This document shows, piece by piece, positions 1 through 47,029 of a DNA stretch of 64,000 nt. The notes below the pieces were generated by a model that saw nothing but the letters and a program-made list of their open reading frames with translations, was not told where the DNA came from and made no database searches. The number at the start of each line of letters is the position of its first letter. Within the stretch, counting starts at the first letter, position 1. The position numbers and the translations under genes were made by a program. The stretch is from Utricularia gibba (lineage: Eukaryota > Streptophyta > Magnoliopsida > Lamiales > Lentibulariaceae), in NCBI GenBank assembly GCA_002189035.1, contig NEEC01000018.1:2294001-2358000 (forward strand), in the 5' to 3' direction.

Positions 1-1653
1 AGTAGCGCCGTTCTTGAATCTCCTGGAGATACACCGGACCACCCCTCTGCTCGGTCTGGTGCTGTTGAAGGTTACGCTTCTGAAGATTTTGTTGTTGGAT
101 CGTCTTCCGGCCGCGAGAGAAAAAAAGGTTTGTTCTTTTCTTTTTCCTTAGTTGCCTTCAGTCCCTTTTTATCGAATTTTATTACAAATTTATGGCATTT
201 GGGTGAAATGGGAAACCAGCTCGACTGATATGCTGAGCATCAAGAAGATGTGTTTATTTATGTGATCATTTGCACGTGCATTTCATTTGGAAGCCGTTTA
301 TACAATCTCACCAACCTTTTACTGTATTCTCCGTTTGGAGTTCTTCGATCTCTCCGGAGCCTGTTTGATGTTACGTTCTGGATGAAAAGGCATTGTCTTC
401 ACTCACCGTGCATGTTTCCGCATTATGACTTCCGTTTTGCTGAGTTTGCTCCATAGTGTCGGTAGTTCAAAATGTATACATAATTGGCATTGTGTATGCT
501 GTTTTCTGGTTGTCTTGCTTTTGATTCTCGAATAGTCTTCGATATCTTTTTCAGGTGTTCCATGGACAGAAGAGGAGCATCGCTTGTTTTTGTTTGGATT
601 ACGAAAACTTGGTAAAGGTGACTGGAAAGGCATTGCTCAAAATTATGTAGTTTCCAGGACGCCTACGCAGGTTGCTAGCCATGCCCAAAAGTACTTCATT
701 CGACAGATTAAAGTCACTCGGAGAAAAAGGCGTTCGAGTCTGTTTGATATCATCGTGGATGAAGTAAGCACCTGTTTTTTATTAGCAAGATTCATGTTTA
801 GATAGACACACTTGCTGTAAACTTGCATAAGCAGCTCCTCGTTACCTGAAAAAGGAAATATTTTTACGGGGTGCTCAATGCGTGTCATGTTTGAAAGTAT
901 TTCAGCTTCTCCCCCAAGTCGAATTTCGAACTACTTATTCTTATTTTTCTGGGATGAATCTAGCTCGATTAATTTGGCAGCTTGCTCTTTTTTGCTGAAA
1001 TGCCCTCTCCTCTTTCTGATTTCTGAAATGCATTCCCTTTTTACAGTATGTTGTAGTGCTATGCATTTTTTGGAATAATTTTCACTTTACTGTTTAGCAG
1101 AGAGTTAAACTAATCATCTTTTGTCAATTTATATGTAGTTTGTTGATAATCCGGTTCAATCAAGAGACAGAGACTTCTTTTCAGTGAATCCAGATGCCAA
1201 CAAGAACAGCACCCCTCCACCCGTGGCTGTGGAAGAAGAATGTGAATCTATGGAGTCTGCAAACTATAAAAATGCAGAGAGTGCACTCCCCAACCCAAAG
1301 TCCCACAATACTCTCTCCCTATTGTTTATCCTGCTTATGTAGCTCCTGTCTTCCCTTTTCCAATCGGCCCTGTCTCGTTCTGGCCAGTATTTAGTACTGC
1401 AGAGCAGCAGCTTGAGCCCAGGGATGGGCTCGAGAAGGAGGAGGTTCATCAAGTGTTGAAGCCAACAGCTATACATGCAAAGACGACAATCAATGCAGAT
1501 GAGCTTGTCGGAATGTCGAAACTGAGCCTCACTGAATGCGTCCCATCTGCTCCATCCCTCAAACTGATCGATGCATCTGCGAGACCATCAGCATTCCATG
1601 TGAATCCTGGCTCTGGCAGCAGTTCCAGACACAACCCAATTCATGCTGTCTAG
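1..1653 (+). CDS. KUA1/MYBS3-type single-repeat MYB transcription factor (5' partial, one frameshift)
   Basis: The protein is a nuclear DNA-binding factor of the SHAQKYF class, which in the KUA1/MYBS3 branch represses sugar- and growth-related genes. Exons are 1-127, 555-763 and 1139-1653. The gene starts left of the window. Exon 2 encodes the single MYB repeat, beginning VPWTEEEH, with the signature VASHAQKYF and a basic tail [10 protein letters not shown]. Exon 1 gives the usual lead-in GYASEDFV. Exon 3 starts in the expected frame ([14 protein letters not shown]), but that frame hits a stop at 1340-1342. The family-like C-terminal part ([32 protein letters not shown], ending HAV) lies one frame over. 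Restoring one C in the CCC at 1317-1319 joins the two. AATAAA-like signals lie near 1850. Family assignment is sure; the exact paralogue is not. Confidence 0.88.
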
Positions 1654-1749
1654 CCATACGGTGCTGTGTTAATAGGGCAGAAGCAGCACAACATAGGGAG
1701 GCAACTTTGATCACTAGTGATTATTTCATAACTGCAAGTGTTTTTGCAA

Positions 1750-2531
1750 ATAAGTGTATCGTCTGCTTACAAGTGGAATAACTGAAGACGATGCCAGCCC
1801 CTTAACTTGCATGTTTATTTGGATCCTTTGTCAACAAAAATGAATCATGAATAAACTTATCCTGTAACTTTTCTCTTTTGATCAGCAAAGACGCTTATTC
1901 TGTAACTATTGGATTTTAAAACGTTTGCTTGTTCATTCTGCATGACGACTAAATCCACCACAACCCATCTCCAGAAAAGTGAAAGCAGCCAAGGTTGTAA
2001 AGTGCCTTATCAGACTGATTTTGTGATGAAGAAAGATCTATAATGTAGTACACATACGCTTCGTCTGTGAGTGGATGGTGATCGCGACAGTCGTCGAGAT
2101 GAGGCATTGAGTGGATGATGATCATGATATGGATCACGTAAAGTTGCATAAGCACACTGTCAGCAATGGAGATTGTGATCAAACTCATGCAGTGCACAAC
2201 AGAAAGTAGAAGCTGAAATCAGCACACTATCAAGGAGCGAAAGCAAGAACTAGAAGGATGCATAATGCAGCACCAAGTGATGGAAAGAAGTTCATGTATT
2301 TTGTCTTTAAGTGCTGTGGCTGCATTGAAGAGAAGCTCTGAAGGTGAAGTTGAATAGACAAATATATGTATACACAGTACAACAGTAATTCCTCAGTCCT
2401 ACACAGTTACTGGAACTTGTCCAGTGCTGTGGCTGTTTAGGTTCATTCTTTGTATCTGACTGGAGTTCATCAACATTCTAATGTAGTTTACTTATTGCCA
2501 TCAATAAGATAATTAGGAGGATGACAAGGGA
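1750..2531. other. Convergent 3' spacer between the MYB gene and the DUF761 gene
   Basis: This stretch holds the probable 3' UTR and poly(A) region of the MYB gene on the left (AATAAACT near 1850) and the 3' UTR of the minus-strand DUF761 gene on the right. Open frames here are short and show no recognisable domain. I see no RNA gene or mobile element. Confidence 0.5.
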
Positions 2532-3474
2532 TTAATTGAAACTGGAGCCCTTGGATGATGCTAATGCTGATCGCTGAGCGGTTGATCTTCTAATAGACTC
2601 AATCCTCTGCAACCTGATTTGTTCTCTGAACTTGGCTATGAATTCATCTGCTTTCTTATCCACATCAGGCCCCAAATCCTCCTTTTCAACTGGGCTTCCC
2701 CTGTTAGTATAATCATCCTTTTCACCATCACTTTCACTGCTCTCACTACTCTCCACCACCCCTTCTTCTTCTTCTTCTTCTGAAACATATTTTTTCACCT
2801 CCTCCGCCATCGGTGATCGCAATGCTCGACTCGGTATACCGGAGTTGGATTTCATTTTCTTGAGTGACCGTGGGGGAGGCGGAGGCGGGGGCGGAGATGG
2901 AATCGAAAAGGTTTTCTTCATCTCCTTTAATCGCGATCGCCGTGGAATCGGCGGGGAAGAACAAAGCTGCTTTTCCTTTCTTCTTCTCCTCCCCTTCTGG
3001 TTCCTCATTTCTCTGCTTCAGTGTCCTAACAGGCAAAAGCAGAGGCTTTTCCTCTCCTTTCGCAATAACAGTAACAGGGGACACCTTCTGATGCATCAGG
3101 CTCCACTTATTAACAACCTTACCAGCATCATTCCCCTCTATCTCCGCCGCAACCTCGCTCTCCTCGTCGAAAATCGACGAGACATGAAGCAATCTCGATA
3201 AGTAAGTCTGCGAGTTGCAACTCTGAATGTTGTTATCCTTGTCAGACTCATCGTTCTTCTTGCTAAATAAACCGTAAGAAACAGCCAACCCCACGAAAAT
3301 AAGCTGGAGAAGCTCCCAGCTTCTAGCGTGAATAGCTGAATTCACAAACTCGGGAGCAAGGGAAGGAATCAGAACAAGAACCAGAGCCAAAACCGCAGCT
3401 CTGAAAAGAAAATGCCTGAACGACGACAGCGACGACGTCTTGGGTTTGAAAGACTGGGAAACTGCATCGTCCAT
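2532..3474 (-). CDS. DUF4408/DUF761 membrane-anchored protein with proline-rich middle (one frameshift)
   Basis: This belongs to the plant 'hydroxyproline-rich glycoprotein family' with an N-terminal DUF4408-like membrane part and a C-terminal DUF761 box; its molecular function is unknown. The start at 3474 gives MDDAVSQSFKPK, then two hydrophobic segments (about residues 24-40 and 52-70, the second with LLQLIFVGLAVSYGLFSKKN). The C-terminus in another frame has a run of eight prolines, an acidic stretch of glutamates, and the DUF761 signature DVDKKADEFIAKFREQIRLQ. The two frames overlap between 2746 and 3008. Dropping one G from the GGGG at 2953-2956 (plus strand) yields one frame, FFPPIPRRSRLKEMKK, which reads like the family. 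The joined protein would be about 313 residues. There is no intron. I take the frameshift as a likely sequence error. Confidence 0.72.
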
Positions 3475-3539
3475 GGAATACTGAGAAACGCGGGTTGAAG
3501 GTTGAGGTGGAAGCAGGGAAAGAAGAAGAAGGAAGCCTT

Positions 3540-6500
3540 AAGGAGTAAGCAAAGGATAAATAACAGACATGACACGACCAGCAAAAGCTTTGAACCACTT
3601 ATTCATTCTTTTTTCTTCCCCATGAAAACGTTGAAATTGCAAAGAAAACCATCGCCCACATGGTGAAGAGAGAATCGTTGGCCACCTTTTGGACAGTGTA
3701 CGCAAGTTCAGTTTTCGAATGAATGGATGTCCTGTCTCTTTCTTCTCTGTCCAAATTCGTTGATTCTCGAACATTCCCCAGTCCAGCGAGCCGCCAGCCG
3801 GCTGCAAATGAGGCCCGATAATGGTCTACAACTTCGACCTCTACAAACCGCCCAATAACAGCCCAACAACGAGGGATCCATGAAGGGTCTCCTGGGCCTT
3901 GACTTCCCATCCCCAGCGAGGTGGACAGGAGACCTGGGCATCGTCACAGAGGAAGCTGTTGCCTCTCTGTACATTCAAATCGATGAAAAAGTAAAGGGTA
4001 TGGATGGATGGATGGATTGCGTTCTTTTTTTGAAAAAGAGTTTTGTATTATTAGAACAATAAATCCTACTTCACATTTAAAAATTGAAATAATTAATTAT
4101 ATAATAAATTATAAATCATTAATAATTGAATTTCGTATCATCTATTACATCTTTAATTTCAATATGCATCACTCATTTCATGTGTATTTCTCAAACACCA
4201 CATGTAACTTTCTGCTTTAGCCTCGCGTCTTGGTTCTAGTAGTTGTGATCTGAAGTGGGATGCAGAATGATATTTCCGGAATGACATTGACAACACTCAT
4301 TTGGAAAAGAAAGAATCCGGAACGAGAGAATGATCAATTTTTGGCATTTATTAAGACAAGGAGCATGGGTGCTCTCCTTTTCATCTTTGTTTACTCCTTT
4401 TCTCCGTGGCTGCAATTTGTTGAACTTTTGTGGGAAGAAAGGACGCAACTTTGCTAACCCCCATGTGCTCCGCTCCCATCAACTTCATCTCTACTTGTCT
4501 AAATCATTTCACACTAATCACCAACACATTAGAATACAAATCCAGCACCCCAAAGCAGATTGATCGAGAAAGGGAATTGCTGTGCGCATTCTACTTTCGA
4601 TGGGTTTAGGGTAGAATCCAGTTCTGAACGAAAACTGGTTTAGAATCCACTTCCAAACTTCGGACAATTTACAGCTGAACTAACACACAAGATGGCCTAC
4701 ACACAGAAAACCATCTCGATCTGCCTCGTGGGCTGAAGATTCCATCTACCTAACAAAAAAACTAAAAGCAAGCATATGGTAAAGCAGATGAGTTTCAAGG
4801 AAGAAAGTAAGAGTGTAGAAGAACAAACAAAAAGTTAAGGGTAACATGCGCACACATGCACTTTGCAAAAGCAACGATCTAAAAGAATGAAAAAGCTGCT
4901 CTTTATGAACCATATTGTTATTATCCCTACTATTCAAGATTCCATATGAGTTTCATCATATTTTCCCTCCACTCACGACCACTGTCTCCCTCCCTCTTCT
5001 TCTCCCTGCTCCTAATCTTGTCTCCACTTCGGACCGTACACCTCATAAGATACATCGCAACTTTGCAAGGTCTCCAAATCACTAATCAAGTATTAAAGCA
5101 CTAATCTTGAGTCTTCATCACCACGAGAGCTTAATCTCTTTACAAAACAGTGTAGGTTAAGTTAATTAATCTATATTTCACAGTTTTACCTCGAATGTAA
5201 GAATTCTGAATAAGGGGTATGAAAACTTTTTTTTTTTCAGGCTAAATTTTAAAAGTAAAAAAGAATTCAAATTTGAGGGGGCGACAACCGCTACCCCTCG
5301 TGTGGGTCTCCCCCAAATTGTCTTTATCAAAAGTTTTATACTATATGGAACCTTAAGATACCTTTTATTTATGGGATTATATGAATTTTAAATAAGGATT
5401 ATAAATTATACTATATTTGGTTTGTAGATTTAAATAAGTTCAATATTATATGGATTTTTTTAATCTTATGTACATAAACTTATTTAAAACTGCATATTTT
5501 CTTTACTTTACTTAAAATCTATTAATTTCATTTGCAATCCCAATAACTAACTAAAAAATTAATATTATCGCATCAAATTTATTTAAACACAAGTAAATTA
5601 AACCCGTTTTATCTTATTCATATCAACCAAAAACTGCCTAAATGGGTCAATTTTAACCAATTTATGTTATGAATCATATATAAAAAGTGATTATTGTCCA
5701 TTGAGGATACCGTACAATGTGATTCGCCCTAATCATGCCGCATTTGCTTCTCGATTATGCCATTGATGGAGTTCATTATGATCACACACTTTCCATATCA
5801 TTCATGGAGGTGTCAGATGCATTCATTAAACGCAGCATGCATGCATGTCATCTACCCATGATCCATGCTCATAATTAATTATGCCACACAATGCGTCTAA
5901 TCATCCTCTCTAATTTAACAGCTCAAAACGGGGGAAAATCAGAGTTACCGCGGGTAAATACCTGGAACGAAAGCGCTATATTTTATTTCATTCGAATCAT
6001 GAGCATACCAGTAAATAATAATAATATTATATTATATGTGAATACATTGCATGAAAGTTTGTGCATATCTATATATGTTTGAATTATTGTTGAAGTCAGA
6101 GCAGAAGACAGTGTGTGATGTGGATGGCTCGTTGAGTTTCACCTTTTTTACCTACCCACGAATTGAATTCTCACCGCCTTGGGTTTAATTACCATTTGTT
6201 GTTTTTACATTGATTACGTGTCTAAATTTATTTAATGCACGTTTGAAAATATTCGAAGTCGGAGCGGGAGTGCGGGTCGACACGGCATGATTCGGGTAAC
6301 AGTAACTTAAATCGATGGAAATTATTATTTAATGCATTTTATTGGTGTAAAATGAAGGAGGGGCGAGTGTCAGAGTCATCTCCTAGACAGAGGTAGGGCT
6401 GTAAAAGGCTGCAGCCGGAGCTGACCGCAACAGCATCATTGCGTTGCCTTCTGTTGATTTCCTTGCCTCCACGTATTCGCGTATGGGTATGGGTATGTAT

Positions 6501-7660
6501 TATTATGGTAATTATTAATTTACCACTAAAAGCAACCCGAAAAGTCAGACCGGAAAAGCATGCAAGTGGCCGGCCGGCGGGCGGGCTTTTTAGTTTTTAT
6601 TGCCTTCAATGATGCTCCTCGGGGACTGTGACTATTGAATTACAGGCCCTACGCTCTTTTCGCTTTTGTGGATTCACATTTTCCCTTTTACATTTTTTTC
6701 TGATGTAATGGAGAGTGGGAGAAGAAGAAGAAGCTGAACATGGGGGAGGAGTAATAAAAGGGGGAGAGATGAAGAAGATGGGTCGCATTTAAGGTGTGGC
6801 ACTGAAAAGCATGGCGATGGATGAACCAAACAAACAAACATTTATGCTATCCGCCAGCCAGCGCGCCAGCCCGGCGCAGGGCAGGGCAGCGCAGCGCAGC
6901 GCGGCACAGACACCTCTGCGGCCTAATACTCCAAGCGCCAAATCCAAACGACAAAAAAATCTGTAGCCCTCGGAGAGAGCCCTCTGGAATCACATTTAAT
7001 GAGTCGCCCCCTCCCATAACACAACATCTTACGTCTCTTTCTCTCCACAATTCCCCACGCAAACCCAAATCTCCCGCTGCCACTTCCCATGTGCGACAGC
7101 ACCCTTCCTCCAAACTCACCGGCTTCCCCCTACTTCTCCCCTCCATTCCACTCCGCTATGTCGTACCAGACATTCTGTCTTTATGAGAAAGCTAGGGAGT
7201 GTCTACTGTTTTGGGTCATAGTTTTTATGTTCCGTTTAGCAATAAACACTGATATCAAAATGGAGAGCACCAGCAATGGTGCATTGTAAGGAATTTGTGC
7301 ATAGAAATATAATCTTTCCAAAGCAGGCACATTTTCAGGCCTTTCGGGTCAGAATTCAGTACTCTATGCTTCCAAGATTCCAAGGAGAATGAGAACAAGT
7401 GTTTGTGTTAAGGGAACCGCTCGGCGTTGGTTTATGCGAAAAGGAAAAAAAAACCAAACAAGTGAAAACTCCAAGGAGAAAGAGGAATGAAATAGGGTTT
7501 TAGTACAAGGGAAAAAACAGGAACAACTGTCAACCAATGGGATAAAATTCCCAAGGACCAATTTGCATGCTCTACCTCTTGTCTTTTTTTCTAATCATTT
7601 TTTTTATTTGATATCAGGATCTTATCTGATCATCATGGACACGTGGCTACACTACATTTG
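3540..7660. other. Long gene-poor spacer, AT-rich, no recognisable gene
   Basis: About 4.1 kb without a supportable gene. Small open frames have no domain and the codon use looks random. Notable local composition: a (TGGA)n run near 4003-4017, a very AT-rich stretch from about 5340 to 5700, and a GC-rich block at 6545-6590 and again at 6850-6905 (many GCC/GCGC words). The right part probably contains the downstream region of the IDD gene. No transposon ends were identified. Confidence 0.5.
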
Positions 7661-7666
7661 ATTAGG

Positions 7667-9338
7667 TTAACATTGAGCGCCACCGCGGTTGGGTGCTGTG
7701 GTTGCTGATTCCCATTCCTTGAGTGCGGCGGTGATGTAACTCAGCTCCATCGACGACGAGCCTTCGGGTGTCTGTGATTCCTTTACGTTCTTGCACGAAT
7801 GATGCCACGTCATCAATGACATGGCGGCCGCCATTTGCTCCGCCGCGTACTTCCGCAGCGCCTGCGCTCTCTGTAGCTCCGCCTGTGCCTGCTGCCGGAT
7901 TCTCTTCGCGTTCCCGAACTCCAACTCTGCGGCCTCCATCTGCCGCTTGGCTTCCTTCCTAGCATCCTCCGCGTACGCCTTCTCCGCCATCGCCTTTCTA
8001 AGCTGCTCCTCAGCCGTCGGTTTTTCGCCGGCGGATTCCGAGGACCCGATTGAAAGCTGGAGCTGCGTTGACTGATCTTCCTCGTTTCTAGTGAGGAGCT
8101 GGAGTTCAATACTCGGCGGCCATGACCGGAATCCGCTCGTCTCCGCCCCGTTTGTTATCACAGAAGCTACCGTGAGATTGGCCTCGCTTGAAGGACACGG
8201 CGGCGGGGCCAGAGGTTGATGAAGATGCTGGGTATCTGATCGGATTCTTCTCATTTCGCAAGAATCTTGATGTTCGATGAAACTCTCCACCCTGAACCAA
8301 AATCCAACATTCAAAACAACGAAACAAATTCAAAAAACAAAAAAAAAATTCAAATACATTACTAGTTACTACGATAATTGCTCGAGAAAGAAGATCATTC
8401 ATTTCTGCAGTTCACCCCCCAAACAGTAAATGTCAGCAGCTTTCCGTTCGCAAAAAAAGCAGCTTTACGTTCACTTTATGTATCTATATACCCGTTTTTG
8501 TGTATCATATTCTTGAACTCCGTGCGCAGCTAATTTGACTAAACAACTCCCGTAATACAACAGTGAAAGCAATCAGACAGACACAACTTCTTCTGTCTAA
8601 AAGATTCCAAATTCTTTCAAATGAAAAAACAAAAGAAGAATACAGAAACTCAGAAATTCATACCTAAGAAGACATCCTCGCACTGAATACGATGAAGGAA
8701 GAAGAAGAAGAACAAGAAGGATGCATTAATTCATCATACGGTAGCTACGCGTACCTGGAAAATACGCGGCCGCAGTCGCAGGAATGGCCGCGAGTACCGC
8801 AGGTTTTGAGATGGGCCTTATAATCGGACTGTACGGCGTAGCCCTTGGAGCACTTGTCACAAACCCATTGGCGGTGGCTGCTATGTTTACGGCGGAAGTG
8901 TTTCTTGATCCCGACAAGATCGCCGAGAGCGTGGCAGGGGTCGTGGTGGAGGCAAGTGGGTTCGGGGCAAACGTAGACCCGTTTTCTAACAACCGGGTTC
9001 TCCCGTTTCAGAAGCTTCCACGGCACCTTGTGGCGGCGCCGGTGCATCTGGAGATTCTGATCGCGTTGGAACCCTTGGTTGCAGATCTCGCAGACGTATC
9101 GGTCTGATTCTAGAAGGGTTCTTGGGGATAGCGACACCACTTCCGCGTCCGGATCTGGATTACAAGAAGAAAAACAAGCAAATCCTATCAACAGAAGCAA
9201 GCAGAAATCAAAATGGGGTTCTGAGTGCAGCATTCGTTTTTGGGCACCTGGGGTTCCCGCGGGGCGGCGGCGGCGTTTGCTGGTGACGGGTTCCTCCGCC
9301 GGAGTTGAAAATTGGTGGTGGTTCATGTCTAGGGTCAC
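7667..9338 (-). CDS. INDETERMINATE DOMAIN C2H2 zinc-finger factor, IDD14/IDD15(SGR5)/IDD16 branch
   Basis: A nuclear transcription factor; members of this branch act in shoot gravitropism, organ orientation and starch metabolism. Exons are 9338-9248, 9154-8755 and 8291-7667 (371 residues). A basic NLS, SKRRRRPAGTP, precedes the ID domain: finger 1 YVCEICNQGFQRDQNLQMH, finger 2 with CPEPTCLHHDPCHALGD, and two CCHC fingers (CDKCSKGYAVQSDYKAHLKTC and CDCGRVFSRVESFIEHQDSC). Intron 2 splits finger 4. The C-terminal coiled region (KAMAEKAYAEDARKEAKRQM, then RIRQQAQAELQRAQALRKYA) is typical of IDD14-16 and not of other IDDs. Intron 1 is 93 bp, a multiple of three, and contains no stop, so its retention would keep the frame. 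The splice choice rests on the family junction PAGTP-DPDAEVV. Confidence 0.93.
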
Positions 9339-9399
9339 CGAAAAAAGAGATTCGACGAGGAGCGGAGGGAGGAAAATTGGGATCGTAGCCTTGCAGAAG

Positions 9400-11194
9400 G
9401 AAAATCTATGGAGATTGGGAGTTTTTTACTGCTTTCTGTGTTGCCATGGAATTTCTGGCGACACTTTTGTCTTTGAGTTGGTGCCGGTGGTGCGGATGCC
9501 GGGCTTGGCTTTGCTTCATTATAAACCTATTCAGCCAACGCCAAAACAAGTATAAATAAATAAATAATAAATAAATGCATACACATGCGGCTGATGTGGC
9601 CGGCGGTACCGTACACATAGACCACAAACCCCGTTTTCTCAACTAATTTCACATACCTCTTACAACACAATACATAGGATTACATTACATGTACTATGTA
9701 TTCCGTACGCATGTCATCCCCGTAAAAACTTTCTACTGTTCATATAAATCATGATTCATAGAATTTTTTTTATTTTAAAAATAATTTTTTTATATATTTA
9801 ACTATATTCGTAAAATGTGAAAATAAAACTTATAATACATGATTTTGTAAGATATATAATGAATTAGATATTTAGTCTTTGAAAAACCGTAAGTCTTCGT
9901 ATTCGTATCCGTTACTGGTAATTCATAAATTATAATTTTACGGATAAGTTGAACCGGTAATTGGCTTCCGGTGTTTGGTAGTGGGTAAGAATGCGATGGG
10001 ATGGCCGGGTTTTGAAGAAATGAGATTTGATAAACAGAGGAGAAGGGTTGGGCTGCTGGGGATTTAGGGTGATGAACACCAGGCCTAGAGTAAGTGGGTT
10101 TGCCAGTCTCCATTTTTGTTGGGTCGATGTGCGCGCCTACTGTGTAATTGTCTTCTTGTCCTAACAAGTCTGGGCGGCCTTCAAAACACAGCGAAAGCCC
10201 TTTGCTGTGGTCGCATCTCGGGCGGCACCTTGAGGATTGAGGGGAGGTCCCCTGATCCTCTGCTTGTCCGTAACTAGCTCGAGGTCCCTGCTTTGTTAGG
10301 CTTTAGAGAAGCGGCAGTGGTATCCCCACTACTTTCTGGGAACAAGGGCCGTTAGGGGAACTTGGGATGCTTCACCCAGAGTGCTCAAGACACACTGGGA
10401 TACGTGGGGGGATGGGAAAAGGGATCAGACCAACCCATTTCCCTCTCATCTTATTGAGTTTTTTTTTTTTAGTTCTCAATTCTGATGTGAAATTAGAGTT
10501 TTATTCTGATATTCCCTACGGAGGATCACACAAATGAATTGCTAAGATGGGAGCAACAACAGGATCTCCCCCACACAGAAGGGGAAGAAGATGATACTAG
10601 TGTCTGTTTAAAAGTAATAGTAATAATAATTAATTTATTTGTATCTATCCTCTGCTTGTATTATTGGACTGGTACACCTCTGCGATCCCTAACAAGTAAA
10701 GAATTCATTCCTCGGCTAACTTCTTGATTGGCTCGGCTCAATTTCGTTATGTTTCTCGCCTAGTTTTGTTGCGCTTGCGGACCTCCTCGAGCTTTTAAAT
10801 TCTCTTCGATGACAGATTCGGTGCAGGGATTCCTTGGGATTGGGTTCCCCAACTTGGATAGATCTCCTACTCTCTGAATCGGGAGAGAATTTTGAGGTGA
10901 TTTAAGTTTTATGGAGATATTCTTAAATGCCCAAGATTGATGAAGCTTTGTTTTTTGAGTGTGGGTATGCTGATTTTTGGGGAAGCAGATCTGAAAATGA
11001 GCTCTAGTTATTGTTATTTCTTGTCAAGATTCTTAAACTAGTGGAGGTGTTTAGTTCTGAGAAAATTTCGTCTGACAAGCTTGAAGGCATGGGAATGAGT
11101 TTCTCATCTCCTATCTCTCAGGTGAACCTGGACTGAACTCACCTTTCTTTTACTGACGAGAGCTTGCATTAAGGAGCCTGGATAGAGTGGGATC
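9400..11194. other. Spacer between IDD (divergent 5' side) and the ABHD17-like gene
   Basis: The left 300 bp is the probable promoter/5' UTR of the minus-strand IDD gene. The region 9740-9880 is AT-rich. From about 10160 to 10450 there is a GC-richer unique stretch without a convincing frame. Bases from about 10500 onward are probably 5' leader and leader-intron sequence of the hydrolase gene. A 62-codon open frame at 10539-10727 lies there but has no known domain. Confidence 0.4.
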
Positions 11195-11212
11195 GTGTTG
11201 TTGGGTGAGAGA

Positions 11213-12985: not shown

Positions 12986-12999
12986 GGTTTTGCTGTGAG

Positions 13000-15500: not shown

Positions 15501-15503
15501 CCT

Positions 15504-15510
15504 TATATAA
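15504..15510 (+). promoter_or_regulatory. TATA box of the bHLH137-like gene
   Basis: The heptamer TATATAA stands about 50 bp before the ATG at 15555 and supports that short leader and start codon. Confidence 0.5.
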
Positions 15511-15554
15511 GCCTCTAAATCCTCTTGAATGTTTTGCACCAAGCTGCTCCTGTA

Positions 15555-29446: not shown

Positions 29447-29484
29447 AACTGGTTTCTGGTTGTGGTTTTCTTGGTGGTGATGGG

Positions 29485-34871: not shown

Positions 34872-35088
34872 GATTCATTCAGAAAGCCAACCTTCTTCCC
34901 CTCCGGTGTTGTTCTGTGTTGTGGCCGAAGTACGTGCATGTGTTCTGTCAAGGCACTAGTCATAGTTTACTATGGCTTGGGGAGGAGCAACTAGTCATAG
35001 TTTCAGTTTCTTCATCGAGGAGCTTTTCAAGTCAGTTCGAAAGCGAATGTGAGACAAAATTGTTTTAATGTGCAAACGGAACAAGCAG

Positions 35089-35964
35089 CTAGGTGAGTTG
35101 CCTAGGCTTCACATATCCTAATTCGATCAGCTTATGAACTAGTTTCTTCTCAGCATTTACCTGAAGCCACAAAAATGAAAGTGGCATTGCCATGTGCTGC
35201 AATTCAAGAATAAACTGTAGAAAACGTGAATGAAAGATCTCACCTCAAACATGGGAGCGTTCTTGGGTAAGTTGCAAGCAAGAACGATGCTAAGGCCAGT
35301 CTTGAGCACTGGAAAACCAACCCGAATCAATGATGATGGCGTAGCAATAGCGTAACACAAAACGCATTACCTAATCGACGAGCAATGTTCATCCCGGTGT
35401 TATCAGCACACCCGCCGATCAGCGTCGTCACGCCCACAGAAGTGTACTGTTCTTACACTAGCAATGAGACAGATGGATATACCAGGAAATGAATCAAAGC
35501 ATGGTTAATCAAAATTCACCAACTCACTGAACGTGCAGGCGGTGCAGTAGCGTACAAATGGCCCAACTTAGAAGAGTCGTTGCAGCCGATCCACACATAA
35601 ATCTGGATTAACGAAAGAGTTAACGCATAGCAAAAAGATAAATCAAACTCCACCCCACATAAGAAAATCGTGGTATTCTTGCGAAAGGAGACTGCTTGTT
35701 CTGAGTTCTGAAAAAACCCCACGCCAAATATTTAGCATCATCCCTTCTGCACCATTAGAAAGAAAGAAAAACAAAGCGACTTTTTTACCGGAGTTGCGGT
35801 ACCTGCTTTTGAAGGCGAATTATCTGAAAATGGAGAACACCATCATCTGATGGCTCTGAAAAGCACGTAACTTCCACTCCATCCTGAAGCTCAGGGTTTT
35901 TCCCAGAAGCAGCAGGCTCGCTCCCGATCCCATCAATCGGATGTCTTCGTTTTAGGTCATCCAT
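35089..35964 (-). CDS. PSMG4: Proteasome assembly chaperone 4 (PSMG4/PAC4)
   Basis: PAC4 pairs with PAC3 and helps assemble the alpha ring of the 20S proteasome core. Exons are 35964-35803, 35602-35528, 35446-35371, 35308-35244 and 35160-35089 (149 residues), and phases 0-0-1-0 fit. The N-terminus is MDDLKRRHPIDGIGSEPAAS, followed by LQDGVEVTCFSEPSDDGVLH and FQIIRLQKQ. The core reads IYVWIGCNDSSKLGHLYATA, then VTTLIGGCADNTGMNIARRL and VLKTGLSIVLACNLPKNAPM. It ends KKLVHKLIELGYVKP. An open frame inside intron 1 (35516-35722) reads into exon 2 but is not part of the mature product. The gene is convergent with the CBS gene (218 bp) and divergent from PIG-U. Confidence 0.92.
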
Positions 35965-36370
35965 CCCTCAGCTACCAGGATTCAGATTTCAGAGGGCAAC
36001 CTCCGAGCCACGAGAGGGCCAAATTTGAAAGTTATGTTGGGCCACTGTTTGTGGGCTTGTAGTGTACTGGCCCACACACATGGTAAAAAAATAAGGCTGA
36101 TGCTATTTACCCAACTCCTGCATCTTTTCCTTCTTCATCAGCACTCTGGGGTCTTCAGTGTCCTCTCTTCCTTCGTCTCCTGCAAGAATAAGAGTACCTG
36201 AGAAAAGAGGACTTTGGGAAATGGCTCTTCGATTCTACGGAAAGCAGGTTTGTCAAGGGTTTCAACGCTGTTCTTGATGATTTTGGCGTTCTTTTTACTG
36301 GTGAAGCCACTCCGGGTAGGAACTTCGCATTTGATCTTAAAGTGAAGCCCATCGTTCTTCCGAGAAATCG
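35965..36370. promoter_or_regulatory. Bidirectional promoter region between PSMG4 and PIG-U
   Basis: Only 406 bp separate the two start codons, so both core promoters and leaders must lie here. The stretch 36150-36350 has a minus-strand open frame without a domain. No clear TATA box is seen, as is common for housekeeping genes. Confidence 0.45.
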
Positions 36371-39300
36371 ATGGAGGAGACAGTGGGAAATGAGATTAAG
36401 AAAGAGCGGTTTGGGTTTTGGAAGTGGGCATTTGCGTCATTTTTTTTCAGGCTAATTTTGAGTTATTTCTCCGAAAGTCTCAACCTCTCTGCTCGCCCAG
36501 AAGTTACCACTCCGCTCACTAGCCTGCGCCGATGTATATTCCCTCCTCCATTTCTCAGAATGTTTTTTTGTTTTAAATAATAGCATGCGCTTATGGTAAT
36601 GGTGGGATTGTTTGATCTTGTTTATGGACCCTGTTTTAGTGGCAGAAGGCTACTGGTTACAGCAGCTTGGAATGTCACCTTATTCTGGTGCGTGCAATTT
36701 CCTTCCTTCAGTTTTGGGATGCTTTGGTTTCATGCTGAATTTCAGAAATATAATATAGTCGTTGTGCAGGTTCCATGTACCACGGGTCACCTCTTTTGCT
36801 GCCTATTCTGGGTCCTCTTACTGTTAAAAAGTACGTACTTTCCCTACTAACGTTATGGAACAATTTGTTGCTCGCAAGTTCAGGGATTTACAGCAAAGAT
36901 TAATTTATAAGAATGCGTTATGCAGAATCTACGAACAGCCTAGTCAAGTACCATGCTGGTACGCAATTACTCTTGTCTCTTATAAGTGCACTACTGTTAT
37001 ACTAATACACTCAGTTCATTTAGCCCACGGGTCAGTTTGCTTCGAATGCTGGATTTATGTGAATAGAAGACGAGCATGTCGTGTCAACGTCTACCTAACA
37101 TAACACACTCTTTGTTTGTAGAAAACAATAAGTAATACTTTTAATGCATGATCTATACGGCATCGAACGGTCAATCATGCTATAAATGTAAAGTCCTGAG
37201 TTATATGTGCATAACAGCATTGTATGCTACTCTTTCCTGAGTTATATGTGCATTCTTGCAAATTACTAACTCCTGCTTCCCACAATCTTTAGTCAAATAT
37301 TGATTTGTTCGGTGACTGACAGTCCTTTGGATGTAGCCTGGTGTCTGCAGTTGCAGATCTTCTAGCTGCATATCTTATCCGAGAAACTGGACGCCGTCTC
37401 GTAGCTGCACATACCCACAATTTGGCATCCCTAGGAATCTGTAGGACTTTGAAAAGCATAGGTAGTCAGTTGTTGCCAATGGTTGGCATTAGAAATTTTA
37501 CACACTCCTTTTTCCTCCATTTAGCTTTAAATCCATAAAACTGATGGAATAAAATAATGCTTTTCAGATTTTCTTCCATCTGGTGATATTGCTGCCATGG
37601 TTTATTTATGGAACCCATTCACTGTTGTATCTTGCATTGGATTTAACACAACTCCTCTAGAGAACTTATTTATCATTTTGTCTGTATATGGTGCTTCAGC
37701 TGGTATGAAACAAGAGTTGATTACCTTTTTTAGTTGATTACATTTATCAGAAGTCCTAGTAAATTCATTCACTCCATTCAGGACTGGTTCCTTTGTCAGC
37801 CTTTGGTTGGGTAATAGCATCACATTTGTCACTCTACCCATTGATTCTGGTCATTCCGGTATGAATTGTTATAGATAGTTATTATTTGTCCACATTGCTT
37901 TTTGTCTATGAATTAGCCCTTATTGCTTCAGTATTGCCTTTTTTTCCCCCAGATTATCCTTATACTAGGTTTTGGTCTGGATACACCCCCAAGGAAATTG
38001 CTTGTTCAGAGTAACTCGCCTACAGATGGGGGAAATCAGATTAAGTTATCGTCATCATGTGGCAAATTTACAAGAAATACACGTTTTTGTTGGATAAATG
38101 TCGCTTCCTTTTTCATATGGGCCTCTATATGGATGTCCTATGTGCTAGTACTATGCAGTCTCTCCATGAAGGGGCATGGGGGTCTTTACGAGATGCTTAG
38201 GAGGTGCAATATATCATTATTTTTCTTTATAAATTTACTCTTGTACCAGATAAAAATTTCGAGCATGGAATTGACTTCCTTTAGATATCTGGCAGTATGA
38301 TTTCCTTTCTATGCACATTGCACTCCCTGCCTCTTGAACTTTAGTTGTGTTTCAAGCTCATTTATGTCCTTTGGCATTTTTATGCCACAAGCTAAAAATT
38401 ACTGTAAACCATCATACTTTCAGCATCGCTAGACAACAATAATGTTAAAAGGGATCTTTCTGATCACTGACAGTCTCTCATATGCTTTAAAATACTTTTT
38501 TTTTTAATTTTGATTATCCTTATTAATTGCTTCAAAGCCTTTTTACAGGACTTGTGGGTTTATACTTACTGCCAAGGATTTGTCTCCAAATATAGGTGTT
38601 TTTTGGTAAGTTGCAGGTGGTTCAGTTGTTACTGAGTGTGCATTTTGTTGATGGCCTTTGTTTTCATCTATTAGTCATTTGGCTTCATATTGCAGGTACT
38701 TTTTCGCTGAAGTATTTGACTTTTTCCGAAACTTTTTCTTAATGGTTTTTCATGCAAATATCCTGTTTATGGCATTGCCTCTGGCCATACGTCTAAATCA
38801 TAGGCCATGCTTTTTGGCTTTTGTGTACGTGGCAATCTCATCAATGTTGAAGTCTTATCCTTCAGTGAGCTCTCTAACCGAATTTACCATATTTTACTGC
38901 TGTCTGTTTTCGCATATCTCTTTCTATTATTTATTCATCTACATTTCACTGCCAAGGTACTCCTGTATCTTGTTGCCCTAATTTTACAAGTTGTCTCTCG
39001 GCTGCTTATATTTCACTGGCACCCACCTACATGTACCATGCCAAGGATTTTTGAATTTGCTTAAATGAGTTGTATAGATATCAAAAGTCTTAATTTCCTC
39101 CTGTATTGGAACAACTTAGTGTCTTTTCGGTGTTGCTCGTGTCCATTTGTCATGAAGTGGTATTTTAGGAGAATATAGAAAATTATTAGTTTTACGAAAG
39201 TTGAAAGATCTTGATTTTTATATAGCACAAAGCTCTTTTCTTGCATAGTAAACACAACATGTTTAAGTTTATTGATGGCTGTACAAAACTCTTGAAACAT

Positions 39301-40203
39301 TGCTGAAAGCTGAGACTACATATGACATTTCGATCAGCTGAACTTATTATCATACCTATCTAATGTTAATTTGTTTTAAGGTTGGCGATGCTGCTTTGTA
39401 TCTCAGTTTACTGGCTTTTTTCGTCAATGAGTTGGCAGGTCTATTTCCTCATTCCACTCTCTCTGCGTACACCGTAAACAGATTTTTATTCCACAAGTTT
39501 CATAAAATATCATGAATTATTTGACCGTAGAAATGCAATATTCGTTCTTCCTTTCTGGTGGATATGCCGGTGTATTTCTCTTGAGTCCTGTAATGCACAA
39601 TCTATGGATTTGGAGAGTAAGTATCCGTGTATGGAGATTGAAATTCATTATCATGGGAACTGAAAATCATGTTTGTTTTGACCACGCATTTTTCCTCTCT
39701 CAGGGAACTGGGAATGCTAACTTCTATTATGCAACATCAATGGCCTATGCTTGCTTCCAGGTCTTGTCTTTTCCATAATGTTTGCTTCATTGCGTACTTA
39801 AATTGTTAGAACCGTAGATATGCTATTATGAGAGAGCCTCTCTTAAGCATACCCAATTGGTCTGTCTCAATATTGCTGAAATTTTCAACACAGCCTGTCG
39901 CTTTGTAGTGGACTTAAACCTACCGGTTTCTCTGTTCTCACCTGTCCCGGATAAAGAATCACCCATTCGATGATTGCCCCAGAGTAGTGCAACGCTTTTT
40001 TTCAGAATGGATCACTTTTCTGAGCATGAAATGGAGTTTCTAGTGTTGCCCACTGTTCTGGACTCACATCCTTCCTCGTTCCTTTTATGCAGATTGTTCT
40101 CATTGTCGAGGCCGTGTCGACAATGCTGAACTACGACAGGAAGATCAGGAAAATCTGCATCACTGCGGAAAGCTTGAAACACGAGCCGGCTCAAGCATCT
40201 TGA
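36371..40203 (+). CDS. PIGU: GPI transamidase subunit PIG-U (one frameshift)
   Basis: PIG-U is a multi-pass ER subunit of the GPI transamidase, thought to recognise the GPI anchor. Exons are 36371-36533, 36640-36687, 36770-36830, 36926-36958, 37337-37440, 37568-37702, 37782-37858, 37953-38203, 38549-38605, 38696-38864, 39381-39437, 39531-39616, 39704-39760 and 40093-40203. Landmarks are SARPEVTTPLTSLRR, YHGSPLLLPILGPL, PSGDIAAMVYLWNPFTV, FFAEVFDFFRNFFLMVFHAN, LPLAIRLNHRPCFLAFVYVA, LKSYPSVGDAALYLSL, SPVMHNLWIWRGTGNANFYY. In exon 11 the frame breaks after LSLLAF: the run TTTTT at 39416-39420 needs one more T to read FFVNELAEMQYSFFL. With it the protein is 469 residues. Tiny exon 4 was placed by matching length to the family. 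Confidence 0.9.
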
Positions 40204-40562
40204 GAATGTTCATCAGGAGACTCACAGAACTCTTAAACTTCAAAGTGGAAATATCCAACAAATGTTGCTTCGAATCCATTGGGGCTTCTCTTTTCAGTAT
40301 AATGTTATGGGCCTGGGGTCCAATATCACGGAATGGGCTTTACTCGAATCATTTATTAGGGCAGTTATTTCATATTTCCCATTTTATTTTAATAAAATAA
40401 TGATTCGCAGTCTCGTTCTTGTCGTCTTCTTTTTGAGCGGGTTCTCATCTCTCCCTTCCGATTTCCCAACTCGCGCGTTTTCGGTTAAAATCTCTTAACG
40501 GATCGGAATCTCAGTCTCTGTTTTTTATACATTTTGTTGGTTGGTGTGTAGCAGCGTTTGAG

Positions 40563-42633
40563 ATGATGGTGTGGGTAGTGCTAATTCTGGCTCTAATTTT
40601 GTTGTGGTTTGTTTCTCTTGCCAAAATTCTTCAAAGGGTGCCTTCGGTTGATGCTTTCGTGAATGATGGTACTCTGGTTCCTTCATATTTTACGCAAATC
40701 ATGAAGAACTTGAGACTAATCTTTCCAACTATTTCAGATGGGATTTCCCCGAGGAATGTCATGCTCCTTATTGCTCATCCTGATGACGAATCTATGTAAG
40801 CTCAATTTACCAACAGATTGATCTTGTCTTTCTATATTTTACATGTGAATGTAGCGTGTAATTGCTATTCTTTCTGATTTAGTTCAACCATGAAGTTTAA
40901 CTGAGATGCTGTAGTTAATCTTATTGCATTCCATGTTTCGCAGGTTTTTTACTCCTACGATCAGCTACCTGACTTCACGGGGTCACAATTTGCACATTCT
41001 TTGCATTTCGACTGGTAAAATCTTTGTGCTTGATGTTGATATGTTCCTTGATCATGATGTGTTACTGAGCCAGTTTTTATATATACCCAGCAGCTAAATT
41101 ATTTTACAACGCTATGGCTATCGTGTTCCTAAAGTGAAGAGAAAAGAAAACAGTTTAATTGAAAATAGAAGATAATTAGATAGTTCGTCTGCAACTTTGG
41201 GACTCCACGCATTTTGGATAACGGTGCAACTCACAGAAAACTACTAGTGCAGTGATTTCTAATGAAAAAAAAGTCTGGACATTGTTGGTTAATGGGGCTT
41301 TTTATAGGTCAATTGCTGCTTGTTATTATTTTAGGCAATGCTGATGGCTTGGGAAGTATCAGGAAAAATGAGCTCTACTTAGCCTCTGCTGTTTTGAAGG
41401 TCAATCTCAACCTTCAGTCATTGTTTCGTTATCTTCCCTCATTTGACAACACCAGCTTCGTACTGTATTTGTATGCTGAACGTTTGTTAACATTAGGTTG
41501 AATTGTGGCTGAGTTTTGTTTTCTAAAATTCGTTATTGCAGATATATCCTCATCGAGTAAAGATTCTGGATCATCCAGATCTTCAGGTTCCTTAAGAGTT
41601 GTTGAGTTATTTCATATTTTAGTACATGATATATAGGTTTTGGAGTAGCTATCATTTGAAGTCTTTGTAAATAGGATGGCTTTGGAAAAAAGTGGAACTT
41701 GCATCTTTTAGCAAAGATTATCGATGAGGAGGCACGTGCTCATTCCATCAACATGGTAATGCCTGTTCCATTGGTATCTGAAATTCACAGTACAATTTAA
41801 TTGTATAACTACAGGCTATGCTCTTTTGAAAAAGCATTCCATGATATGTGGTTCTTTTTTAAAAAAATCAGATCGTCACTTTTGACAATTATGGTATTTC
41901 TGGGCATTGCAACCACTACGACTTGAACCACGGAGTACGGTGAGAATTATTTGTTGTGTTTTCCTTCTATTTTCCTTTATGATTTCGTGGGGGAAAAAAA
42001 GGCTTCAATATAGTACCATGACTGCATCTAGACGGCGATTCTGTTGCAATGAAAATTTCGTATTCTATTCAACGACTTGCCAAACGAGAATTCCCTAGAA
42101 ATTTCTTGTTGGTTAATTTTCATCAATGCAATCCGAAATCCGTGTTGCTGATAGCTACTCCTTTTTTTCTCAGAAAACTTCTTAGTTCTGATTCAAGAAA
42201 GGATCTTCAAGTATGGGAGCTTGTAAGTTAACTCTTGTAAACATGCTCACACTAGTCCTTTATCAACCACAAGCCATTATGGTTCAAGAGGCCTTTCACC
42301 TCAGTCAGTATAGGTTTTCATATAGGTGAGCAACAACATTGTGCACAAGTACATCGGGCCCATTGGCATTTGGCTGTCGTTACACAATAGACTTGTAAAG
42401 GATGGACGAGCACAATGCTTGCCCAACAGGGATCTACTTCAGACTTACGCTGCCATGTCTCAGCATTCCAGCCAATGGGTTTGGTCCGTCTGCCTTGTTC
42501 TCTTACTGTAAATCAGCTTCTTTTATGTGGCTGTGAGCCGGTCAGTTACTCTTTCCTTTTTTACAGGTTTCGAAAACTTTTTGTCGCATTTTCAAGCTAT
42601 ACCTATTACAACACCCTCAAGAAAGTTGAGTGA
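40563..42633 (+). CDS. PIGL: N-acetylglucosaminyl-phosphatidylinositol de-N-acetylase, PIG-L
   Basis: PIG-L removes acetate from GlcNAc-PI, the second step of GPI-anchor synthesis, on the cytosolic face of the ER. Exons are 40563-40795, 40944-41014, 41335-41399, 41542-41586, 41675-41755, 41872-41939, 42174-42222, 42326-42483 and 42567-42633 (278 residues), all in phase. An N-terminal membrane anchor (VVLILALILLWFVSL) is followed by the metal-binding motif LIAHPDDESMFFTP, then LHILCISTGNADGLG, RKNELYLASAVL, VKILDHPDLQDGFGKKW, TFDNYGISGHCNHYD and the end WVWFRKLFVAFSSYTYYNTL. His and Asp ligands of the family are present. It lies 360 bp after PIG-U on the same strand. Confidence 0.94.
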
Positions 42634-42827
42634 CATCACAAGGTCCTGCTCAGAAATCTTGACGTAGAAGAAGGTAAAATTAGAACATGGGTATGTACAG
42701 ATTCTAGTTCCAGTTTGTCTGAAAGTCATTGTAATGCATGAGAATTGCGTATTGTACACTTGACTCCAGTCCATAACTACAACTCTATGTTTTCAAAGTT
42801 CGCACTTGGAACCAGATTCACAACAAT

Positions 42828-45158
42828 TTATACACAACTCCAGCCTAGAGTTTTTCTTATGCCCTTATCCTTCAACATCTGTCTCATTCGTTCTACCTCG
42901 TCCCACATCTCCAAGGAACTGTAGAAGTCGGATAGCAATATGTAGTAGCCATCATTTTCAGGATCTGCTTCAATAGCTCGCTTTGCTATCTTCACTCCCA
43001 TGTAAGCATCATTGTGCGTTTTGCAGGCACTCAACAGAGAACCCCAGACGCCACCATCGGGTTCAAAAGGCATACACAAAACAAGATCTTCAGCCTCTTT
43101 TAGAAGACCATATCGCCCATAAAGATCGACCATACAGGCGTAGTGCTTCATGGAGGGTTCAACAGGACATTTCGCCATTTTAGCGTATACGGCTTTGGCC
43201 TCCAGAAGCAAACCCGCATGCGCACAAGCTGATAGGACAGCAAGAAAGGTAACGCTGTTTGGACAAACTTCATGTTCTTCCATTTGCTGGAAAAGCTCCA
43301 CAGCTAACTTGCCATACCCATGCATCGCATAACACCAGATAATGACGTTCCAAGATACAACATCTTTTTCATTCAGCAGGTGAAATATTTCTCTTGCCAT
43401 GTCAATTTCTCCACACTTAGCGTACATATCCATCAGTGCTGTGCCAAGTGAGGCATCGCAAGGTAATCCTTGCCTGTTGATATATTCATGGACTTTTTTT
43501 CCTTCTTCAGCGGATGCTAGATGAGAGCAGGCAGACAAAACGGTCACTAGCGTTGGGATATTAGGCTTCACACCTTTAGAAATCATTTCATCGAAAATGT
43601 TCACTGCCTTCAAGGGACTACCATTATCAGCATAAGAAGACATGAGAGAGTTCCATGAAGCAATATCAGGGCTTGTTAGATTAAATAGTTTTTCTGCTAG
43701 ATGTAAATGACCACATTTCCCATACATGTTTATAAGTGAATTTACAACTGATACATTATCGAGCCACAGGCTTCTGAAAGCATGACCGTGCACTGATCTA
43801 CCAGAAGAGATTGCTCCCAATTTTGCGCATGAAGAAATCACAGACGTCAAAGTGTTAACACTAGACATAGATCTCTGATACTGCTGTTCTCTAAACAGAT
43901 TTAAACACTTCATTTCCATTCCTGCCCTTTCGTATCCTACAATCATCAAGTTCCAACACTCCTTTTCCTGATTCTTAACTAACACAAACACGTTCTCCGC
44001 AAAGACCCAAATTCCGAATCTCAAATACATTGACAGCAATGAGCTCCAGACGGTATGATCATCTAAGTAACTTCTCCTCATGATATAACAATGAAAAGCC
44101 TTCCCCTCAAGAATACTATCAGAATTGGAAAAACCAGTAATCATACAACTAATCAGCATTCCATCAGGATATAAACCCTGAGCTTGCATTCTCATGTATA
44201 AATTAAGAGATTCATAAATCAAGCCCGTCCTTGCATATGCCCCGATTACTGATGTCCAAGAAATGAGATCCTTATCAACAACTTCATTGAATGATAGCCG
44301 CGCATCCCCAACATCTCCACACTTTGAATACATTGACAAAGTAGCAGACTGAACAGCATGCGAGGATAAAATCCCAGATTTAAGCGATAACGCATGCAAG
44401 CACCTACCTTCAGCCAACATACCAGAATTCCCACAAGCTTGCAAACCGCCCTCCATTGATCGAAAATTCACTCTGACGTTATCACCACCGGTCCTATGCA
44501 TCTCGCGAAAACACTGCAATCCCTTCTCATTCTCACAGTGCTGAACAAACCCAATCAAGAGGGCAGTCCAAGCAGCAACATCTTTAGTATAAATTTCATC
44601 GAACACAAGAGAGGCACTCGCCAAGGAACCACATTTCGCATACATGTAGACTAGTGACGTCCCAACTGCTGTATTATCATGAAACAGATTAACCTTTGTG
44701 ATCAAGCAATGAGTACACATCCCAAAAGGAAGGAACCCAAGTTCAGCGCAGGCGGAAACAACCATTGGAATGGTGAATTGATTGGGAACCTCCCCGAAAA
44801 ATCGCATCTTGGTAAAGAAATCAATGGCTTCACCATAGTTTCCTTTGGAAAAATGAGCTTTAATGATTGAGTTCCAAAGAAAAACGTCTTTCTCATCGAG
44901 GGACACAAAAGTTGTAGTGGAAGAAAGCTGCCGATCAATGAGTGCATATGATGCTATCAGCTTTGAAGCTAAGAACTTGTTTTGGGCGTGACCAGTGGTA
45001 ATGCTATACGCATGAATGGGAAGTAGAAACCTTGGTTCCAACAAATTATTGGAGAGTAAATAATCTATGCGTTTGATGAGTTGAATGGCTTTCGATTCAG
45101 CAACCGATGAAGAATTGTGAAGGCGTCTGAAGAAAGTCGACGCCTTTAACACAAACAT
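42828..45158 (-). CDS. Pentatricopeptide-repeat protein, PLS class (At4g39952-like), organelle-targeted
   Basis: A sequence-specific RNA-binding PPR protein, probably imported into mitochondria to process or edit organelle transcripts. One exon, 776 residues. The N-terminus MFVLKASTFFRRLHNSSS is basic and hydroxylated, like a presequence. PPR units run through the protein, for example DVFLWNSIIKAHFSKGNYGE, DVAAWTALLIGFVQHCENEK, DLISWTSVIGAYARTGLIYE, DIASWNSLMSSYADNGSPLK, DVVSWNVIIWCYAMHGYGKL. L-type units have repeated MYAKCG and MYGKCG. The C-terminus (GGVWGSLLSACKTH, NDGYYILLSDFYSS) is an E-type end finishing LGWSCV, with no DYW domain. The frame is intact throughout. The stop codon lies 194 bp from that of PIG-L in convergent orientation. 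Confidence 0.94.
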   Translation of the reverse strand: MFVLKASTFFRRLHNSSSVAESKAIQLIKRIDYLLSNNLLEPRFLLPIHAYSITTGHAQNKFLASKLIASYALIDRQLSSTTTFVSLDEKDVFLWNSIIKAHFSKGNYGEAIDFFTKMRFFGEVPNQFTIPMVVSACAELGFLPFGMCTHCLITKVNLFHDNTAVGTSLVYMYAKCGSLASASLVFDEIYTKDVAAWTALLIGFVQHCENEKGLQCFREMHRTGGDNVRVNFRSMEGGLQACGNSGMLAEGRCLHALSLKSGILSSHAVQSATLSMYSKCGDVGDARLSFNEVVDKDLISWTSVIGAYARTGLIYESLNLYMRMQAQGLYPDGMLISCMITGFSNSDSILEGKAFHCYIMRRSYLDDHTVWSSLLSMYLRFGIWVFAENVFVLVKNQEKECWNLMIVGYERAGMEMKCLNLFREQQYQRSMSSVNTLTSVISSCAKLGAISSGRSVHGHAFRSLWLDNVSVVNSLINMYGKCGHLHLAEKLFNLTSPDIASWNSLMSSYADNGSPLKAVNIFDEMISKGVKPNIPTLVTVLSACSHLASAEEGKKVHEYINRQGLPCDASLGTALMDMYAKCGEIDMAREIFHLLNEKDVVSWNVIIWCYAMHGYGKLAVELFQQMEEHEVCPNSVTFLAVLSACAHAGLLLEAKAVYAKMAKCPVEPSMKHYACMVDLYGRYGLLKEAEDLVLCMPFEPDGGVWGSLLSACKTHNDAYMGVKIAKRAIEADPENDGYYILLSDFYSSLEMWDEVERMRQMLKDKGIRKTLGWSCV

Positions 45159-45159
45159 T

Positions 45160-46263
45160 CGACAAGAATTTTGATGCTCCGCCCATAAAATCTCTCTTCG
45201 AACACGAGAAGCTGCAAAGATTTCTCTGTTGAAGGTAAAATTCAGAATAAAACGCCTTTATTTTATTGAGGGGGAAAACAACGAATATCCGTACGAAAAA
45301 TCAACGTATAAATATCGAGTACCATTCGCTGTGCAGAGCTGTTTTCAAATATTTCATCGCCTCTGCTCATCGATGATTCACAGGTACGTTCATGTAATTC
45401 ATTTGGATGGATCTTCATTTTATGCTCTTCCCTTCGATTTGTGATTGATCTATTCGGATGATGCGCGTTAGGGCTTTGAATGTTCCTCCTTACCTTTTTC
45501 TGGTTTTTCTTCGGCTATTGGAATTTCAATTTCCTAAGGTTTTGAATTGTGTAACAGGTTGATCAGTTGATAACTGCAGCGCTTAGAGTATAAGGCGGCT
45601 TCATGTCTGGTTTCTTGTTGTGGTTGTGCGAGCTGCGCCTGTAGTGCGTACCATCGGCAGCGAGGTGATCTGAGGTAAATGCCTCAGTCTCGGAGCAACA
45701 TTTTCGATTTCCATTCATCCTCTCCACTATGATTTATACTAAAGTAATTTTCGGATCCAGACATGGGAAGCGCATTCCGCCGATGAAACCTCAGGAGATT
45801 TTTCAAATTGCCGCCGTCCCGGTGGACTCCGCCGCGTGCATCCCTACCAATGACTTCTTCCACCGTTTGGGTATTCCATTGGGCCACCAGGACCTACAGA
45901 ACAGGCCCATTTGTTTTCCGAGCTCAAAGTAATTAATTATTGTATTTCGCTTGGGCCAGCTGCAGGATGTGGACTGGAGAAACAAAGAGACGTGAAATTT
46001 GCACCCTCGTAAAAGGGCTCTTTATCGACTCTTCGTCAGTCCGTACCCTGCACTCGAAAGCAAGTGAAGCTGCGATTCGTGGAGCCATTTGTCAAAAGTG
46101 GTAAATACATATGCTGCTCTGCTAATCTCATGTTCACAGTACACTCGCGTGCGTCAAGAACATGTGTATATTCGTCCTCAATCATCGTGATCGTGTTATT
46201 GCACGCATCCTCTTCCTCATCCCACTCCAGATACCAACGCAGACAAAAAGGCGCTATGCTATG
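45160..46263. other. Spacer between PPR and FLZ genes
   Basis: The left part is the PPR promoter (TATAAATA near 45306 on the plus strand is in the wrong orientation to be sure). An open frame at 45729-45932 (KRIPPMKPQEIFQ) has no family I know, and the opposite strand is open too. The right end is the FLZ 3' UTR. No RNA gene is recognised. Confidence 0.4.
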
Positions 46264-46988
46264 CTATGCTGCAAGAACACCGTCGCTGAACATCTGGCCG
46301 GCGGGGCACGACGCTGCTCCGGTGCTGCACTTCTCCTTGGGCTCCTCGATCGCTATTTGTCTGTGTCTGCATTCTGCGCTGCAAAATGCCTTCTCCCCCT
46401 GAGACAGAATCCGTACACCGTAACCCATCATCATCTTCCCACACCAACATCGAAATTCTCTTTAGGCTACGATTTCCTTGACTTTTTTTGTTCAATTTGA
46501 AAAACACAAGGGAGGTCTAAACTGAGAAATTAAGTACCTGTATATATAAATGTCTTTGCCGTGGAGTTTCTTCCCACAAAGATTGCAGGAATTGAGAAAA
46601 TCGGATGCGGGGAGGCCGGGAGCCGTGTCGGTGTATCTCGCCGTGGAGATGTGGAAAACGCTTTGTATTCTGAAAGGGGTTTGATCATCCCCCTTCCTGC
46701 CGAACTCCCCAACCGCAACACCCCGGATCGGGGTGGCCATGGGATCGGGAAACGATCGCCGCAGGCTCCGGCTGACGAGGTTGCGGTCGACCTGAATATC
46801 AGCGAAGCCGTCGCTGGAATTCTGGAGGGCGGCGACGATTCCGAGACCGATACCTCCGAGATCAAAAGCCTTGGGTCCAGATCTCGGGGATTGGTTCTTG
46901 GAGGATTCGAATTGGGGGAGGTGCGATGGCCGGAGAGCAGTGGGCCGGTGAGGATTTCGATCACCGGGCGAGACCCTTTGCCCAACAT
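46264..46988 (-). CDS. FCS-like zinc finger protein (FLZ, DUF581; two frameshifts)
   Basis: FLZ proteins are plant adaptors that bind SnRK1 catalytic subunits. Exons are 46988-46538 and 46398-46264. The family start MLGKGSRPVIEILTGPLLSG is in one frame, while SPRSGPKAFDLGGIGLGIVA and the zinc finger SDFLNSCNLCGKKLHGKDIY are in the next. One extra G in the GGGGG at 46914-46918 joins them. Exon 2 encodes GEKAFCSAECRHRQ, completing the C-x2-C...C-x3-C FLZ motif, but with only four G after the acceptor (46395-46398) its phase is one base short of the exon 1 donor (phase 2). One more G in that run fits MYR|GEKAFCS of the family. With both bases the protein is 195 residues. The intron position inside the finger is typical for FLZ genes. 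Confidence 0.85.
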
Positions 46989-47029
46989 CGCTGGAATCTA
47001 GGGAGAGCGGTCGATTAATCGAGATCAAT

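Follow-up and report, generated by a model that had tools for sequence, protein, structure and literature searches.

The window analysed here is a 64,000-nucleotide stretch of the Utricularia gibba genome (G000:C409:2294001-2358000). The assembly comprises 516 contigs with 100.09 Mb in total, and the last base of the window lies about 134 kb short of the end of contig C409, which is 2,492,500 bases long. The genome of U. gibba was assembled with HGAP from 88x PacBio reads (PMC5793159). Among the genes of the window are those for a MYB-related transcription factor, a DUF761-domain protein, an 11-beta-HSD-like protein (HSD), a CML41-like EF-hand protein, PIG-U and FLZ, in which an earlier note had claimed seven frameshifts. 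Of these six genes, five do change frame, at six of the seven sites (one each in MYB, DUF761, HSD and CML41, and two in FLZ), whereas PIG-U does not. The PPR (809 aa) and ARM protein (571 aa) genes of the window are uninterrupted reading frames, and in expansin, CPN20, SAUR, IDD and RRP12 the Pfam pieces tested are free of internal breaks. DNA searches with positions 1-20000 and 27001-47000 returned diverged paralogs only and no second assembly of the window itself. The segment at 5324-5644 holds a repeat about 280 bases long, of which roughly 30 divergent copies (72-79% identity) occur on many contigs. Positions 11117-20000 are collinear with C142:1276929-1293735, a duplicate block of 69-89% identity, as expected of an old whole-genome duplication.

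In exon 3 of the MYB gene, on the forward strand, one base is missing within 1264-1305, a stretch that the paralogs L002 and L003 cross in a single frame up to SSQYPIPVVYPAYV. The frame of the family is back by 1306, where the paralog reads SQYPIPVVYPAYV. Since the second frame is in use in the window from this point on, the frame change itself is upheld but its position moves upstream from the proposed 1317-1319 to about 1264-1305, where CCCC at 1288-1291, CCC at 1294-1296 and CCC at 1302-1304 are the candidate runs. The DUF761-domain gene, on the reverse strand, changes frame between its N-terminal part (ORF 2746-3537) and the DUF761 domain, which lies in the second frame (ORF 2532-3017; Pfam, E 5.1e-15). 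The net effect is a surplus of one base, equivalent to a loss of two. A change had been placed at 2953-2956; the frames and the Pfam match bracket it only within 2953-3017.

The remaining three genes with altered frames also lie on the reverse strand. The last exon of HSD lacks one base within 27070-27110, between SGTGERE and NLRKKIMDF, which are probably the two parts of one HSD C-terminus; the upstream exon matches short-chain dehydrogenases, and a run of three C (27100-27102) lies near the break. In the CML41-like gene one base is missing at 29034-29043, either from CCCC at 29034-29037 or from CCCC at 29040-29043, and the protein resumes in the neighbouring frame as GSGRITAKSLQRALRQLGDPKSYEDCVAMIRGLDSQGKGELGYGEFHQMMAA, reaching a complete C-terminus. 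FLZ is broken in both exons, as had been claimed. Exon 1 lacks a base within 46880-46935, between MLGKGSRPVIEILTGPLLSGHR and the SGPKAFDLGGIGLG part, with GGGGG at 46914-46918 as the candidate run, and exon 2 lacks one at the splice acceptor, in five consecutive C (G on the coding strand) at 46395-46399. The FLZ paralog L058 has intact exons and a phase-2 intron, keeps the RGEKAFC frame and reads the same stretch in one frame.

For PIG-U, on the forward strand, the shift claimed at 39416-39420 is refuted by exon phase, human PIGU and Pfam. The exon at 39381-39438 is 58 nt long with GT-AG sites, runs from phase 0 to phase 1 and joins in phase with 39531-39616, which gives the two missing bases, to encode VGDAALYLSLLAFFVNELAEMQYSFFLSGGYAG with no shift. 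The spliced product, VGDAALYLSLLAFFVNELAEMQYSFFLSGGYAGVFLLSPVMHNLWIWR, aligns without gaps to human PIGU (7w72) over the claimed site and matches positions 260-378 of the Pfam PIG-U model (E 3.8e-42), and the protein does not continue in another frame at this site. PIG-U was also the sole T-run case, so that of the proposed bias towards short G, C and T runs only the G/C part stands. Likewise, a balance of six sites needing one added base and one needing a base removed reduces to five of the six confirmed sites that require an added base, with DUF761 of opposite sign.

GRAS genes, which mostly consist of a single exon, served as a control set. A search with PF03514 returned about 25 uninterrupted genes and many split ones, and the split genes were compared with their closest intact paralog by frameshift-aware alignment. 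Restricting the comparison to genes that lie mid-contig and have a close intact paralog left a clean set of ten, whose 16 breaks are without exception net losses of one base, with one stop among 4051 aligned codons. For ten of these breaks a G/C run of at least four bases is no more than 12 nt away (random mean 1.65, with none of 3000 draws reaching as many) and five are close to a run of at least five (0.48 at random), and A/T runs are not enriched at the 16 breaks. Placement of the lost base from protein score alone was abandoned, as it cannot fix the exact position.

Several GRAS breaks share a motif. L036, L037, L038 and L041 break within RPGGPP, at a G4, C5 or C6 run, and L039 breaks at this motif or no more than about 15 bases away; in intact paralogs the runs within the motif are interrupted, as in GGTCCACCT or GGCCCTCCG. 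One base each is missing at or near RPGGPP in L037 (C375:1927200-1928540), L038 (C142:1758850-1760180) and L039 (C2:1407230-1408530), which have intact relatives in L007 and L009 and are presumably DELLA-like GRAS genes. Intact GRAS genes contain three G/C runs of at least six bases, against 8.6 expected from synonymous shuffles, and A/T runs are depleted about equally (7 against 13.1 expected), so run depletion was dropped as a discriminator.

Constraint was compared across the breaks in MYB, FLZ and the GRAS genes. Values of dN and dS on the two sides of the break agree in MYB, FLZ and most of the split GRAS genes, and are close to those of intact pairs. Thus constraint is kept in these genes, and the clean GRAS set mostly lacks the stops, larger indels and relaxed constraint that mark pseudogenes. 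Recent death is unlikely for the set as a whole, though possible for any single gene. The GRAS copy L052 (C244:2105230-2106340) offers a useful contrast as a likely true pseudogene: it carries two stops and several gaps of more than one codon, and its 3′ part is under relaxed constraint, with the rise in dN and dS that a dead gene should show.

Loci assembled more than once allow a direct comparison, in which alleles or old duplicates would be expected to show substitutions as well. Over the 10 kb that they share, C416 and C422 differ by nine one-base indels, a single isolated substitution and a block of 5 bp, and a GRAS gene present in C414, C416 and C422 has zero substitutions in the three-way overlap, with the frame kept in the C422 copy only. 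Against C412, C316 has ten losses over 4.1 kb and one substitution. The assembly itself creates one-base indels. These cases come from small contigs or from the ends of contigs; within large contigs, the only differences between C321 and C377 over 4 kb are at two A/T 10-11-mers. Because C321 and C377 agree so well, random error inside contigs is low, which makes it necessary to assume a systematic error of run length; we infer that within-contig errors are mainly of this kind, as in the GRAS set. The redundant, near-identical loci are L082-L085 (C414 end, C422 and C416 start), L015/L016 (C316, C412), L086/L087 (C377, C321) and the HSP70 region of C241/C304, and such contigs could be used to gauge the indel error of the U. 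gibba assembly. At positions 1218-1222 of L084, C422 has GTGTT where C414 and C416 have AACAC between nearly identical flanks, an apparent 5-bp inversion.

Other gene families add six breaks, three in HSP70, two in KCS and one in DYW genes; judged by eye, each has lost one base at a G/C run that is three to six bases long. A KCS gene on C402 breaks at a G6 run, and an HSP70 gene is split at a G5 run with the same scores in C304 and C241, a shared break that fits a systematic error and also a true mutation. By our own count, DYW, Exo70 and KCS have about two in-domain breaks per 20-26 kb, rarer than in GRAS or in the window; a smaller number of long G/C runs and stronger selection could each account for the lower rate. 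The DYW gene at C4:2200563, whose two breaks both lie away from G/C runs, may be a true pseudogene.

Taken together, we hold it probable, at roughly 0.87, that the six frame changes are consensus errors of the PacBio assembly in which a short G/C homopolymer lost one G or C, and that the genes are intact in the plant. Consensus calling would drop one base from such a run, the chance of a drop would rise with the true run length, and the affected genes would remain whole. Indels in homopolymers are the main error of long reads (PMC12007338), and uncorrected long-read indels, the cause proposed in the earlier note, are supported by the recurrent one-base losses at G/C runs genome-wide and by the indel differences among assemblies of the same locus. 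As expected of an artefact, the indels are of one base (16 of 16 in GRAS, and five of six window sites that need one more base), those in GRAS are enriched at G/C runs, and assemblies of one locus differ by indels rather than substitutions (C414/C416/C422 and C316/C412), with little difference between C321 and C377. By extension, each single site in the window is probably such an error, and the contigs were presumably incompletely corrected with accurate short reads. The frame changes are thus most likely an ordinary artefact, neither dead genes nor new biology.

Several observations count against an artefact. The broken genes of the window belong to multi-gene families, whereas PPR, PIG-U and the RRP12 pieces are intact; DYW, Exo70 and KCS are less broken than GRAS; C377 and C321 agree well, so that the error inside large contigs has to be systematic; the HSP70 break common to C304 and C241 may be a true mutation; and DUF761, which needs one base fewer or two more, is of opposite sign and fits a loss of G or C least well. 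The same bias towards gene families could reflect real and recent pseudogenisation after whole-genome duplication, with redundant copies lost in a strongly fractionated genome by slippage at G/C runs in the plant. Diverged duplicates of window genes do exist on C142, with paralogs elsewhere, all broken genes come from multi-gene families, the non-redundant DYW genes are less often broken, and some copies do look like pseudogenes, among them L052 with its two stops and its gaps. We nevertheless consider this unlikely, since it would be expected to leave gains, stops and larger deletions of mixed age rather than 16 losses in 16 clean GRAS breaks with one stop in 4051 codons, and since constraint persists beyond the breaks and the same lesion separates assemblies of one locus. 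That the losses are real in the sense that U. gibba loses single G or C bases from coding runs at a high rate, with many multi-copy regulators, including the three DELLA-like GRAS genes, freshly dead in the sequenced clone, appears very unlikely.

Two further explanations were weighed. Mis-modelled introns or exon ends are the right account of PIG-U and of the split GRAS gene L040, where an intron-like insert marks the break, but they are highly improbable as a general one and were rejected for the other six window sites, where the two frames overlap or sit tens of bases apart, too close for an intron, and paralogs (L002, L003 and L058) cross in one frame. Programmed ribosomal frameshifting, or correction at the transcript level, at G/C runs might be suggested by the several GRAS paralogs that break at one motif with constraint beyond it, yet it is scarcely credible given that intact paralogs require no shift, that the same losses vary among assemblies of one locus, and that G/C runs are the only feature common to the sites. 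No such mechanism is known to act in these plant gene families.

Consensus error as the preferred reading has consequences for a species used as a reference in the study of genome reduction and gene loss. Should G/C losses occur at the rate seen in GRAS, automatic annotation would yield split genes and pseudogenes, and claims of GRAS/DELLA loss could be wrong. Gene-loss claims that draw on this assembly should therefore be checked at G/C runs, and a quick filter is available: a break at a G/C run that needs one base added is a suspected artefact.

Two known systems bear on this reading. The fractionation and pseudogenisation that followed whole-genome duplication in Utricularia (PMC6982007) resemble our observations in the multi-gene families, the duplicate block on C142 and copies like L052; however, true decay brings mixed lesions, stops and relaxed constraint, which are mostly absent from the window genes and the clean GRAS set. 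Long-read homopolymer errors that fragment predicted proteins (Watson and Warr 2019, via PMC7671305; Kastor study, PMC12007338) are alike in their one-base homopolymer deletions, few substitutions and protein conserved on both sides. The two differ in that the Kastor nanopore data (PMC12007338) favour A/T runs whereas the coding breaks in U. gibba favour G/C runs, and in platform, which was nanopore for Kastor and, judging by the species, PacBio for U. gibba.
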